A DNA stretch of 63,422 nt from Gemmatimonadales bacterium (GCA_025927545.1 JAICLE010000008.1:1-63422), one strand, 5' to 3'; numbered from the stretch's first letter, positions 13,472 through 26,980 are shown. Translations and numbers: made by a program. Notes: generated by a model from the letters alone, not told the origin.

Positions 13472-14396
13472 TCTCCGCGCTGTCGCCGGGCTTCCGCTCG
13501 AGCCGCGTGTCCTCCCACGAGACCGGGTCCTCCACCGGCTCCAGATGCGTGAACACCGTGCTGTTGGGCACGGCCGCGCGCACCTCCTCCTCCAGCCGCT
13601 CCAGCAGATCGTGTCCCCGTTTCACCGACCAGTTCCCCGGCACCAGCACGTGGAAGTCGATGAACCGCCAGGCGCCCGCCTGGCGGGTCCGCAGCGCATG
13701 AAAGCGCACCCCGCCTGAGGTATGGCGGGCGAGAATGTCGGTAACGCCGCGCTGCAGCTCGTCGGGAATCGCGGTGTCCAGCAGGCCCATCAGCGAGCGC
13801 CTCAGGATGCCGACGCCGGTGTACACGATGTTGAGGGCGACCCCGATCGCCACGATCGGATCGAGCCGCTGCCACCCCGTGACCGAAGCCGCCCAGATGC
13901 CGATGATGACGCCGAGCGACGTCCAGACGTCGGTCATCAGGTGGTGGGCGTCGGCCTCCAGGGTGATCGACTGGTGCCGGCGCGCGGCGCGGAAGAGCAC
14001 CCGGGCGACGAGCAGGTTGATGACCGAGGCAGCGACCGAGATCCCGACGCCGAGGGTGAGCTGCTCGATGGGCCGGGGCGAGAGCAGCCGGCGGATCGAC
14101 GCGTAGAGGATGCTCGCGGCCGCGAGCATGATGAGCGCGCCCTCGAAGCCGCTCGAGAAGTACTCGGCCTTGCTGTGCCCGTAGCGGTGGTCTTCGTCTT
14201 CCGGCCGCGCCGCCGCGGTCAGCGCGATGAGCGCCACCACGGCCGCGGCCAGGTTCACCAGCGACTCGAACGCGTCGGACAGCAGGCCGACCGATCCGGT
14301 GACCGCGTAGGCCCAGCCCTTGAGCCCGATCGTGGCGAGCGCCGCCAGGATCGAGATGACGGCATAGCGGCGGAGCGAGCGGCGCTGCTCCGTCAC
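13452..14396 (-). CDS. Cation diffusion facilitator (CDF) metal transporter
   Basis: A 314-residue inner-membrane metal/proton antiporter. The N-terminal half contains several hydrophobic helices, with membrane-embedded metal-site segments [10 protein letters not shown] (about 40-49) and [16 protein letters not shown], and the cytosolic loop [14 protein letters not shown] typical of the family. The C-terminal ferredoxin-like domain (about 215-300) includes [24 protein letters not shown] and [26 protein letters not shown]. The substrate is probably Zn, Mn, Co or Fe. It is the last gene of a tightly coupled minus-strand set: its ATG overlaps the stop of the DUF72 gene (ATGA). Its 3' end overlaps the convergent epimerase-like gene by 20 bases. 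Confidence 0.92.
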
Positions 14397-15310
14397 GCCG
14401 GCGCCCCGGGCAGCATCCGCAGCACCCCGGCCACGGTGAGCGGTGCGCTCCCTTCCGCCCGATTGTTCACCAGCAGGTATGCCGGGATGCGGGTGCGGAC
14501 GGCGGTCTCGATCAGTCGCAGCAGGTCGTGGCGGAGCGGGGGCGACGGGTCCTGGATGCGGTCGTATGGCGCGAAGGCATCCACCGCCTCGTCGTAGGTG
14601 CGGCCCGGCTGGAGCAGCGCCCGCGCCACGATGAAAGGGCCCGAGACCGCGCCCGGCAGGTCGAGCTGGTCGCCGATGGGCGGCATGCGCGTCCAGGAAT
14701 TGAAGACGTGGGCGACACCGTGCTCCCGGAGCACGGCGAAGTACATTGGCGTGAGAAACTCCTCGTTGCGGATCTCGACGGCGTACATCCCCTCGCGCGG
14801 CAGCACGCCGAAGAACTGGTCCAGCATTTCCGCGAACCGCCCCGCGGTCATCCCGCTGCCCCGGCCGATGGTCTGGAACTCGAAGACGAACGGCCCCGCG
14901 TGCCCGGCGAAATGTCGCTGGTACGGCTCATACACCGCTTCGAGGAACAGCTCGGGGCTCAGAAAGTCCGGATTGACCTTTCCGGCCCGCGCCTTGTCCT
15001 GCGCCTTGCTGAACGTGTGCACCGTGAGCTGGTTCCAGACCTTGCTCACGCAGGGGAAGCCGGCCGGCAGGTTTTCGGCGTAGGATCCCAGCACCGCATC
15101 CGTTGGCGGCGCGTAGAAGCTGGAGTCGATGCCGACGGTGCGGAAGAGGGGGAACGCCGCGTATTCCTCCAGCATCCTGGCCGGGGCACCCCGTCCCTCG
15201 TATTCTCGATGGTAGACCAGCCCCCGCCAACCCGGATAGTTCCATGAGGACGCCCCGAATCGGACCTCCGCCGGCAGCCGGGCCGCGAGGGCCCGGAGCT
15301 CCTCGGTCAT
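14393..15310 (-). CDS. DUF72 family protein (YecE-like)
   Basis: A 305-residue soluble protein of the DUF72 TIM-barrel family. Recognisable segments are [22 protein letters not shown] near the start, [65 protein letters not shown] and [17 protein letters not shown] near the end. No enzymatic role is firmly established for the family. Both ends are translationally coupled by ATGA overlaps: upstream with the glucose-dehydrogenase-like gene and downstream with the CDF transporter, giving a three-gene operon. Confidence 0.9.
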
Positions 15311-24055: not shown

Positions 24056-24571
24056 ATGTTCGGATATTCCGCGGTGGCGACGGCGCTTCTGATGCTGGGT
24101 GCCGCCTCGCTCGCGCAAGCTCAGCAGGCCACCAGTGACACTGCCGGGAGAGACAGTACTCACGCCATGCGCGTACGCGCACGGGATGAGCGCACCATCA
24201 CCACCGACACGGTCCGGCTGCATCGGGAGATGGCGATCCGGGACTCCGCCCGGACGCTGCTGGATCAGGACCAGGCACAAACGCACGCGACCGGAAAGCA
24301 GATCGACTCGCTCAAGGCCGTGCTCGATCGCGAGCGGAAGGCCACCCCGCGCGACACCGTGGCGATCAACCGCAACCTGGCCGCGCTGACGGGCCTGCGG
24401 CAGAAGCTCGACCGGGACCTGGACCGGGATCGCCGGGTGAAGACGCGGGTGGACTCGCTCGACACTCGAGTCCGGAAGGAGTCGGAAGCCGCGATCGACG
24501 CTCACCAGAACATCAAGGAGAGCCGCACCACGCCGCAGGCGCATGCCGCGGCATCGAAGACACATCGCTGA
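24056..24571 (+). CDS. Secreted helical (coiled-coil) protein
   Basis: A 171-residue exported protein with a clean signal peptide (FGYSAVATALLMLGAASLAQAQ). The mature sequence is hydrophilic and almost entirely helical, with repeated Asp/Arg/Ser/Thr-rich heptads (DSARTLLDQDQAQ, IDSLKAVLDRERK, LRQKLDRDLDRDRRVKTRVDSLDTRV). The C-terminus is Ala/His-rich. GGAGG is present nine bases upstream of the ATG. No known family is recognised; it is probably a periplasmic coiled-coil protein. The last 59 bases overlap the 3' end of the convergent ImuB-like gene. Confidence 0.65.
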   Translation: MFGYSAVATALLMLGAASLAQAQQATSDTAGRDSTHAMRVRARDERTITTDTVRLHREMAIRDSARTLLDQDQAQTHATGKQIDSLKAVLDRERKATPRDTVAINRNLAALTGLRQKLDRDLDRDRRVKTRVDSLDTRVRKESEAAIDAHQNIKESRTTPQAHAAASKTHR

Positions 24572-25772
24572 CGCGGGAGACGCCCGTTCCCCGCACCAGC
24601 CCCTGCCCGCCCCAGCGCCCCCGGATCCGATCGATCGCGTGCTGCAGGGCGCGGGCACGGACGGACGAGTCACCCCGGGGAGAGCTCTCCTCGGGGTGAC
24701 TCGCTTCGCCGGCATCCGGCCCCTCCCACAGCTCCAGTTGCCCCTCCGCCTCCTCCAGCCGGTCCAGCGTGAGCGCCACCGCGCGCACCGCCAGCCGCCG
24801 CGCATTGGCCTGGGTGAACGCGCGCCGCGCCGCGTCCCACAGCTCGGCATCGAGCGCCGCGGCGTGGAGCGCTACGGCGCGGGCGGCGGTGGCATGGTCG
24901 ACGTAGGTGAGGGCGACGCGGAGCCGCCGCGCCACCAGCCCGCGCCGGCGAAGTCGGCGGCCGAGCCGCTCGCCCATGAGACCTAGGAGCGGGAACAGCA
25001 CGCCAAGGTCGTTGGTGTCGGTGGCCAGCGTGTGGGCCACATGGAACTCGGCCTGCCGCTCGGGCGGCAGCACGGGGCGCGGGTCGATGCCGCGCGCCTG
25101 CGCCCGGAGCGTGCGCCCGGCGCCCCCGAAGACGGCACAGAGCGCGGTCTCGGAGATGGCCGCGACCTCGCCGATCAGATCGAGCTGATAGTCATCCAGC
25201 CGCCGGCGCATCTTCGGATGCAGCTCGGGGAGCACGTCCAGCGGATGCGGCGCCAGGAAGCGGGCCTCGGCACCACCGGGCACCTCGAGCAGCGGCTCGG
25301 GCTTGACCACGGTGGTGGCGGCCTGGCTCACGAGCTTGTTGGCGGCGATGCCGACGGAGACCGGAAGCCCCAGCCGTGCTCGCACCTCGCGCTGCACCCG
25401 CGCGGCCACGTCCACCGCGGGCCCGAAGAGCCGGCCGGTGCCGGTGAGGTCGAGGAAGGCGTGACCGTAGCCGTGGGGCTCGATGACCGGCGCGTACACC
25501 CGGAGCACCTCGTGCAGCGCCTGCGAGGCCCGCGCGTAGAGCCGCGGGTTGGGCGGGAGGAGCACGAGATCGGGACACCGCTTGAGCGCCTGCCGCGCCG
25601 GCATTCCCCGCTCGATGCCCGCCAGCCGCGCCTCGGCCGAGAGCGCGAGGATGGTGGCGCGGTCGGCGCCGGGCGGCGCGACCGCGACCGGTCGCGTGCG
25701 GAGCGCGGGTGCGACGAGGCCTTCGAGGGTGGTGCAGAAGGCGGGAGGGTCGATGAAAAGGACGGAGCGCAT
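24513..25772 (-). CDS. imuB: ImuB-like Y-family DNA polymerase homologue (catalytically degenerate)
   Basis: A 419-residue protein of the DinB/UmuC Y-family. The palm, fingers and helix-hairpin-helix parts are recognisable (VLFIDPPAF at 4-12, VSVGIAANKLVSQAAT at about 138-153). Of the three catalytic acids only Asp8 remains. The canonical SIDEA motif reads GYGHA at 101-105, so both the Asp and the Glu are lost, as in ImuB mutasome adaptors. A beta-clamp-like pentapeptide QLELW is present at 345-349, comparable to the QLPLW of mycobacterial ImuB. It therefore probably recruits a partner polymerase (DnaE2) and the clamp at damaged DNA rather than synthesising. It is the last gene of a minus operon, 12 bases after the radical SAM gene. 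Confidence 0.85.
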   Translation of the reverse strand: MRSVLFIDPPAFCTTLEGLVAPALRTRPVAVAPPGADRATILALSAEARLAGIERGMPARQALKRCPDLVLLPPNPRLYARASQALHEVLRVYAPVIEPHGYGHAFLDLTGTGRLFGPAVDVAARVQREVRARLGLPVSVGIAANKLVSQAATTVVKPEPLLEVPGGAEARFLAPHPLDVLPELHPKMRRRLDDYQLDLIGEVAAISETALCAVFGGAGRTLRAQARGIDPRPVLPPERQAEFHVAHTLATDTNDLGVLFPLLGLMGERLGRRLRRRGLVARRLRVALTYVDHATAARAVALHAAALDAELWDAARRAFTQANARRLAVRAVALTLDRLEEAEGQLELWEGPDAGEASHPEESSPRGDSSVRARALQHAIDRIRGRWGGQGLVRGTGVSRVSDVSSMPRHAPAAWCGSP

Positions 25773-25784
25773 GGACAGCGGGCA

Positions 25785-26813
25785 CTACAGCAGCCGCGGC
25801 TGCTCCGCCGCCGCCGCCCGGTCCTCGCGCCCCTCGAGCTGCCGGCTCCTCCGCATTCCCTCCTCCACCGGAAACCCATGCCGCCGCTGCAGCTCGTGCA
25901 GCCGCTCCGACAGCGCGCGCTGGTACACCGGGCTCACCCCCTCGCGCCGGGCGTAGTGCCGCTGGTACCGCTCGGCCAGCTCCGGAAACTCGCGGGCGAG
26001 CACGGGAAGGAAGCGCTGCCGCGCCGCGGGGCCGAGTCGGAGCGCCGACCCGACCACGTAGCGGGCACCGGCCGCCTTTGCCGCGCCCATGAGCCGGTCG
26101 AGCCCCGCGCGATCGTCGGTGATGCCCGGAAGGATCGGCGCCAGGAGGAGCCCGGCGTGAATGCCGCCGGCGGTGAGCCGGTCCAGGGCGCGGATCCGCG
26201 CCGCCGGCACCGGCGAGCGAAGCTCGAGCCGGCGCGCAAGCCGGCGGTCGAGTGTCGCCAGCGAGATGTTCACCGTGACCTCGTGCCGCTCGGCGAGCCG
26301 GCCGAGCAGGTCGAGGTCGCGCGTCACCAGCGGCGACTTGGTGATGATGCCGATGGCGAGCCCGCGGTGCCCCAGTAACACCTCAAGGATCCGCCGGGTG
26401 AGCCGGAACCGCCGCTCGGCGGGCTGGTAGGGGTCGGTGGCCGTGCCGATGACCAGCGTGTGTCCGGCGAGCCGCGCGGGGTCGAGCGTGCGGGCGAGCA
26501 CCTCGGCCACGCCGGTCTTGACCAGGATGCGCTTCTCGAACGCTTCCCACGCGGGGAGCGGCTCCGGCGCCGCACCGCTCCGCTCGACCGCGTAGCGGTG
26601 CGTATCGCGCGCGTAGCAGTAGGTGCAGCCGAACTCGCAGCCCACGTACGGGTTGACCGACCAGAAACCCATGCCGGTGGAGGCCGCGGTGTTGAGCACC
26701 GAGCGCACCGGGAGCTCGAGGAAGCGGGTGCCGCGCTGCCGCTCGTCCAGCACCGCCCACCGGCGCTCGGGCGCCTCGGGCGAGGGCAGCAGGTCGAGCT
26801 GCCGCGGAGTCAC
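25785..26813 (-). CDS. SPL-type radical SAM protein
   Basis: A 342-residue radical SAM protein related to the spore-photoproduct-lyase-like (Rv2578c-type) family. The 4Fe-4S motif is GCEFGCTYCYARD, with Cys at about 59, 63 and 66, preceded by NPYVGC. Further family segments are FEKRILVKTGVAEVL, VIGTATDPYQPAE, IGIITKSPLVTRDLDLL and LLLAPILPGITDD. The reaction is unknown; SPL itself repairs thymine photoproducts in DNA. I chose GTG 26813 because it overlaps the stop of the zinc-ribbon gene in a GTGA, which also removes a low-complexity Arg/Pro-rich extension. It is followed after 12 bases by the ImuB-like gene, linking it to DNA damage tolerance. Confidence 0.88.
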   Translation of the reverse strand: MTPRQLDLLPSPEAPERRWAVLDERQRGTRFLELPVRSVLNTAASTGMGFWSVNPYVGCEFGCTYCYARDTHRYAVERSGAAPEPLPAWEAFEKRILVKTGVAEVLARTLDPARLAGHTLVIGTATDPYQPAERRFRLTRRILEVLLGHRGLAIGIITKSPLVTRDLDLLGRLAERHEVTVNISLATLDRRLARRLELRSPVPAARIRALDRLTAGGIHAGLLLAPILPGITDDRAGLDRLMGAAKAAGARYVVGSALRLGPAARQRFLPVLAREFPELAERYQRHYARREGVSPVYQRALSERLHELQRRHGFPVEEGMRRSRQLEGREDRAAAAEQPRLL

Positions 26814-26980
26814 CCGCAGCGGCCCCAGCCGCAGTGCCGGCAACTCACGCAGCCGGAGGCGCGGACGAGCGTGCCGGCGCACTCGGGACAGACGCGGAGG
26901 ACGGTCTCGGTGGAGGGATCGCGCCGGGGTGGTTGGTAGCGTGTGGGTGCGAGGGGCGGGCGAGGGTGGAAGGGTGGCAT
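26810..26980 (-). CDS. Stand-alone NrdJ-type zinc-ribbon small protein
   Basis: A 56-residue protein: a Pro/Arg-rich N-terminus (MPPFHPRPPLAPTRYQPPRR), then a zinc ribbon with cysteines at 31, 34, 44, 47, 50 and 55 (VCPECAGTLVRASGCVSCRHC, split CPEC ... GCVSCRHCG ... CG). The ribbon closely resembles the C-terminal tail of B12-dependent class II ribonucleotide reductase (NrdJ), which re-reduces the active site in that enzyme. GGGAG five bases before the ATG and a GTGA overlap with the radical SAM start support it as a real first gene of the operon. Its role is unknown; a redox or nucleic-acid-binding partner for the radical SAM protein is a plausible guess. Confidence 0.75.
   Translation of the reverse strand: MPPFHPRPPLAPTRYQPPRRDPSTETVLRVCPECAGTLVRASGCVSCRHCGWGRCG

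Follow-up and report, generated by a model that had tools for sequence, protein, structure and literature searches.

A probable SOS-controlled iPolY-DnaE2-RecA mutasome core without a detected ImuA, beside a zinc ribbon and a radical SAM gene, in a Gemmatimonadales bacterium

The ImuA-ImuB-DnaE2 mutasome joins a dead Y-family adaptor bearing a clamp motif to DnaE2 under LexA-type control. A putative mutasome without ImuA, composed of DnaE2B, an inactivated Y-family polymerase (iPolY, gbDinB2-like) and RecA, has already been described (PMC12926913; earlier PMC6511836). SplB-like (COG1533) radical SAM (S-adenosylmethionine) genes are under SOS control in other phyla (PMC3323433, PMC8565304), and SplB-like neighbourhoods with ImuB-C are known (PMC3765255). 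Here we analysed a 63,422-nucleotide stretch from a Gemmatimonadales bacterium (GCA_025927545.1, JAICLE010000008.1:1-63422; hereafter the window), in which genes for a zinc ribbon, a radical SAM protein and an iPolY lie near a dnaE2 gene. Our data point to an SOS-controlled iPolY-DnaE2-RecA core, that is, an ImuA-less mutasome of the DnaE2B-iPolY-RecA type, and we put the probability of this reading at roughly 0.75.

The three tightly packed minus-strand genes, and dnaE2 lying 4.4 kb downstream on the same strand, all carry the expected domains, confirming the arrangement described in an earlier, sequence-only reading of this DNA. The GTG start of the radical SAM gene overlaps the TGA of the ribbon gene as GTGA, and only 12 bases separate the radical SAM gene from the Y-family gene. 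Plus-strand genes are present between dnaE2 and the three-gene run (20.1 to 24.5 kb), and therefore dnaE2 forms a separate transcription unit.

Alignment to E. coli Pol IV showed that D103 and E104 are replaced by G and H in the window Y-family protein, which by its sequence is an inactivated pseudo-polymerase with a dead active site. A model built with 34 sequences (mean predicted local distance difference test score, pLDDT, 86) matches the structures of Pol IV and Dpo4, with a helix predicted at residues 368-387. The putative clamp-binding motif QLELW is followed by ALQHAIDRIRGRWG, a sequence similar to the RecA N-terminal motif described for Y-family tails in PMC6511836; this likeness was assessed by motif and pattern, without the published profile. 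Both QLELW-like and RecA-like motifs were found again in many iPolY homologues. The protein ends about 23 residues past the RecA-like motif in a low-confidence tail, which leaves no room for an ImuB-C domain, and none is present. A canonical ImuB was thus ruled out, and the "ImuB" label given by the sequence-only reading has to be dropped.

The DnaE2 catalytic motifs PDIDLDF and KIDLLG are intact and the polymerase is apparently active, in keeping with the earlier proposal that a pseudo-polymerase partners DnaE2 here. In a phylogenetic tree that included no labelled DnaE2B reference, the window DnaE2 grouped with DnaE2s of lexA-iPolY operons and of Bacteroidota, and not with the Agrobacterium ImuABC DnaE2. 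The ImuA model NF033429 had no match in the source genome, an assembly that is 91% complete and in 181 contigs, so that absences from it are provisional. In the 98% complete genome of the same genus (G008) this model detected RecA only, while it recovered ImuA-size proteins from the related genomes G018, G150, G153 and G159; the earlier remark that ImuA is not seen therefore stands. PF00154 matched RecA, whose gene runs into a contig end, and gave one further weak match in the source genome, probably RadA.

The family motif CCGAA-N6-CCGAA emerged as the consensus of the dyads enriched in the lexA upstream regions of 30 family genomes. Exact matches precede both the ribbon and the dnaE2 start codons (Table 1), where the sequence-only reading had suggested looking for LexA sites. 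A first LexA matrix built on lexA promoters alone was too specific and missed the ribbon site, so a simple half-site pattern was used instead; the dnaE2 box is the top match of the lexA-derived matrix across the whole window. The half-site pattern was picked after the ribbon site had been seen, whereas the tests on recA and on other radical SAM promoters are independent of that choice. In these tests, recA was preceded by an exact CCGAA-N6-CCGAA in 21 of 22 related genomes, and an exact box lies 5' of 63 of 73 radical SAM homologues from several families. Among relatives, many iPolY genes and some dnaE2 genes are preceded by one as well. The window holds three exact boxes where 0.14 would be expected, and not one of 100 shuffles reached three. 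The genome holds 14 exact sites against 7 for the reversed control, two of them 5' of lexA and one adjoining a uvrA-like gene. The window units thus have both a LexA-type box in the promoter and conservation in relatives, and strong comparative evidence places the ribbon and dnaE2 units in the predicted SOS regulon.

The remaining exact box in the window, at 592-607, lies 28 bases 5' of a 76-amino-acid open reading frame (ORF; 636-866), which is divergent from the gene at 2-391. Its product had no match in an NCBIfam search and is a candidate small SOS-induced protein.

Like the described DnaE2B-iPolY-RecA system, the window combines an inactive Y-family protein, a RecA-N-terminus-like motif and a DnaE2 outside the ImuABC group, lacks ImuA and ImuB-C, and belongs to a kind with wide phyletic spread. 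It differs in that dnaE2 and the iPolY gene lie in two separate boxed units, that the latter is co-operonic with the ribbon and radical SAM genes, and that a DUF72 gene lies near dnaE2, a family of which the searched text of PMC12926913 and PMC6511836 makes no mention. With the ImuA-ImuB-DnaE2 mutasome it shares, judging from the motifs, a dead Y-family adaptor with a clamp motif, DnaE2 and LexA-type control, but it has no detected ImuA, no ImuB-C and a DnaE2 outside the ImuABC branch. Since the window core matches the published ImuA-less mutasome, RecA, and not the radical SAM protein, is most likely what replaces ImuA.

Table 1. Coordinates of the features of the window discussed in the text
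Feature	Position	Strand	Remarks
LexA-type (SOS) box CCGAACAAATACCGAA	26996..27011	-	exact motif match, 15 bases 5' of ribbon start codon
Zinc ribbon, 56 aa	26810..26980	-	free-standing, NrdJ-tail-like ORF
Radical SAM gene, 342 aa	25785..26813	-	GTG start; Rv2578c/PA0069-like; PF04055 6.5e-16
Y-family polymerase-like gene (iPolY), 419 aa	24513..25772	-	IMS 8.5e-37, IMS_C 1.8e-11 (Pfam)
Putative beta-clamp-binding motif QLELW, residues 345-349	24726..24740	-	directly after little finger
RecA-N-terminus-like motif ALQHAIDRIRGRWGGQGLVRGT, residues 375-396	24585..24650	-	pattern recurs in iPolY tails of several phyla
LexA-type (SOS) box CCGAAGAAAACCCGAA	20144..20159	-	exact motif match, 36 bases 5' of dnaE2 start codon
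dnaE2, error-prone DNA polymerase III alpha, 1067 aa	16904..20107	-	DNA_pol3_alpha 2.2e-66 (Pfam)
DUF72 gene	14393..15310	-	PF01904 3.1e-26

A DnaE2 alignment scan yielded 80 loci from many phyla. LexA lies beside 34 of these and PolY beside 53; ImuA was found beside none, and a radical SAM gene of the window kind beside a single one. DUF72 is present in 29 loci (28 on the same strand); every one of these copies lies in the 446 kb adjoining dnaE2, and the 545 kb of distal flank contains none. The groups with DUF72 include Thermodesulfobacteriota, Spirochaetota, Nitrospirota, Krumholzibacteriota, Marinimicrobia and KSB1, and a Desulfosarcina plasmid carries a lexA-DUF72-iPolY-dnaE2 operon. The window DUF72 protein, whose gene is separated from dnaE2 by a GSDH gene, is therefore a probable accessory of this kind of iPolY-DnaE2 mutasome. 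For the DUF72 protein Tm1631, modelling predicts lesion binding much like that of endonuclease IV (PMC3828134); a literature search for DUF72 together with DnaE2 returned no relevant paper. PADLOC gave no match.

We then compared the neighbourhood in relatives, using family labels in which f1 is the family to which the window itself belongs. The ribbon-radical SAM pair is retained in f1 and f3. By our own count, 30 f1 genomes carry the radical SAM gene, and 21 of these have a DnaE2-type mutasome gene no more than 10 kb away from it. For these reasons the ribbon, radical SAM and iPolY cluster is more than chance. The clustering proposed by the sequence-only reading thus held for the pair and for its proximity to mutasome genes, but not for the three-gene operon, which is genus-local: the exact arrangement was seen in the same genus only (G008), with a near match in L211. 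In other genera the run is interrupted by further genes, and the iPolY gene often has its own box. In five f1 genomes the pair is present but DnaE2 was not seen.

The f1 pair occurs near three DnaE2 systems. One is the iPolY type found in the window. In another (L085-L092), a small separate protein sits between PolY and DnaE2; it had no Pfam or NCBIfam match and is named ImuB-C-like by resemblance. The last is a reduced ImuA-ImuB-DnaE2 cassette in G018 (L095, 2-4100), about 4 kb from the pair, in which the ImuB palm is mostly lost. A presumed 3-methyladenine DNA glycosylase I, identified by eye with no profile, was also seen just 5' of dnaE2 in several f1 relatives (L038-L042, L211 and L215); that of L038 (9986-10546) has its own LexA-type box.

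The 342-residue radical SAM protein has cysteines at 59, 63 and 66 (CxxxCxxC) and none besides. It scores 231 bits against NF038135 (cut-off 430) and 216 bits against NF033668 (cut-off 360), and is therefore related to the Rv2578c/PA0069 families without being a member by the curated cut-offs. Among plasmid records, its nearest named relative is in Gemmatirosa. It shares with the SOS-regulated SplB-like proteins the broad radical SAM group, LexA and a location near mutagenic polymerases, and differs from them in being Rv2578c/PA0069-like, preceded by a ribbon and limited to three cysteines.

In B. subtilis SplB, a spore photoproduct lyase (SPL), the hydrogen donor is Cys141, a cysteine beyond those of the cluster. 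No such non-cluster cysteine is present in the window protein or conserved in f1; moreover, no SPL family model was among its NCBIfam matches at 1e-3, and a single-sequence search recovered no solved SPL chain at E up to 1. An AlphaFold model made with two sequences was too poor for a fold search (mean pLDDT 47.5). On this evidence the protein is not demonstrably an SPL, and the direct photoproduct repair implied by the earlier "SPL-type" label finds no backing. Ribbon-less f2 radical SAM proteins (L083, L084, L100, L268-L285 and L297-L301) often carry additional cysteines, at the equivalents of residues 224, 256 and 309, which are absent from all 29 f1 radical SAM proteins. The idea of a cysteine supplied in cis in f2 and by the ribbon in trans in f1 is suggestive, yet f6 and f8 have neither.

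The ribbon matches positions 727-759, the last 33, of NF006417, a model of the B12-dependent ribonucleotide reductase (E 7.9e-7), and also the ends of ORFs of about 830-900 amino acids, the size of this reductase, across the phylum. In the cysteine-rich domain of the class II reductase NrdJ, six cysteines are essential, four as predicted zinc ligands and two as a redox pair (PMC5704485). The ribbon has six cysteines at its extreme C-terminus (31, 34, 44, 47, 50 and 55 of 56 residues) in the same order, with Cys44 and Cys55 as the predicted equivalents of the redox pair. This likeness favours the redox-type ribbon of the sequence-only reading. Unlike the NrdJ domain, the ribbon is free-standing rather than part of a reductase polypeptide, has a LexA-type box, is coupled to a radical SAM gene and has its last cysteine at a spacing of x4 instead of x5. 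In G012 and G104, NrdJ-tail-like ribbons occur as orphans, each with an exact LexA-type box but unaccompanied by a radical SAM gene (L304, ~1095-1345; L305, ~1124-1390).

Several observations weigh against our interpretation of the locus. The recA gene is truncated at a contig edge, which puts its own promoter out of view; the deep fork joining the window DnaE2 to the other lexA-iPolY DnaE2s is only moderately supported (87/89); and an imuA unseen in so fragmented an assembly is not proof of absence. As for the ribbon, the isolated NrdJ tail, when separately expressed, gave no rescue in trans (PMC5704485). Moreover, pairing of ribbon and radical SAM protein is not obligatory, because orphan boxed ribbons exist and f2 radical SAM genes are mostly ribbon-less. 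We therefore hold a redox pairing of ribbon and radical SAM protein, drawn by analogy, only tentatively, and would sooner expect it to fail than to hold. The orphans suggest that the ribbon may also act independently of the radical SAM protein, for example on NrdJ. It could be an SOS-induced spare electron-relay tail that tunes deoxynucleotide supply during repair synthesis, since NrdJ tails are the only relatives detected and electron transfer between NrdJ subunits has been reported (PMC5704485). The failure of the separate tail in trans, the GTGA translational coupling to the radical SAM gene and the near-constant pairing in f1 and f3 nevertheless make service to NrdJ unlikely.

The sequence-only reading had the radical SAM enzyme and ribbon standing in ImuA's place within a split ImuB-DnaE2 mutasome, so that photoproduct repair would be coupled to translesion synthesis. 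The tight operon, the shared LexA-type box and the presence of the radical SAM gene near three different DnaE2 systems in f1 agree with this idea, but boxed radical SAM genes persist in genomes that have no DnaE2 and in families that lack the ribbon, the SPL match and the spare cysteine are missing, and the RecA-like motif of iPolY offers RecA as partner. With ImuA-less RecA systems already published, we consider the substitution very improbable; it was rejected on the ground that the same module occurs in other phyla without the radical SAM gene. A far closer contender, which we place somewhat short of even odds, is that independent SOS genes (those for the radical SAM protein, iPolY, DnaE2 and DUF72) lie close together by descent or shared regulation, the radical SAM protein and the mutasome being functionally unconnected. 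Each unit has its own box in other genera, and unrelated quinone oxidoreductase and GSDH genes are likewise retained across genera; plain descent, however, poorly predicts a linkage that survives changed order and orientation (L044 and L054 versus L035) or the same radical SAM gene beside three different DnaE2 systems. The radical SAM protein is a co-regulated neighbour of the mutasome and not a core part, because its gene is boxed across the phylum but lies beside only one of 80 such mutasomes. A bolder proposal, which we regard as improbable, is that the free-standing, SOS-inducible NrdJ-tail copy powers a radical SAM repair enzyme in trans, and that this pair and a lesion-binding DUF72 protein genuinely belong to ImuA-less mutasomes as accessory modules.

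Under the SOS-controlled iPolY-DnaE2-RecA reading, LexA would repress two promoters, one driving the ribbon, radical SAM and iPolY genes and the other dnaE2. Upon DNA damage, RecA filaments would promote LexA cleavage, and both units would be expressed. The iPolY may then act as an adaptor, contacting the beta clamp via QLELW and RecA via the RecA-N-terminus-like helix, and would recruit active DnaE2 to copy past lesions. The radical SAM enzyme may contribute a DNA-repair or DNA-modification activity of its own, induced together with the mutasome; judging from the homologous tail of the class II reductase, the ribbon would most likely serve this enzyme as a donor of thiols or electrons.

Taken together, the locus would represent a LexA-controlled mutasome of the RecA type, without ImuA, in Gemmatimonadota, for which CCGAA-N6-CCGAA provides a testable SOS box. 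It also offers three leads: a radical SAM repair candidate without the SPL cysteine; a ribonucleotide reductase redox tail apparently set free and placed under DNA-damage control; and DUF72, a family whose function has been predicted only computationally (PMC3828134), as a recurrent operon partner of DnaE2 and iPolY in several phyla. If the ribbon-radical SAM pair and DUF72 did prove to be true accessory modules, lesion processing and lesion bypass would be delivered as a single system.

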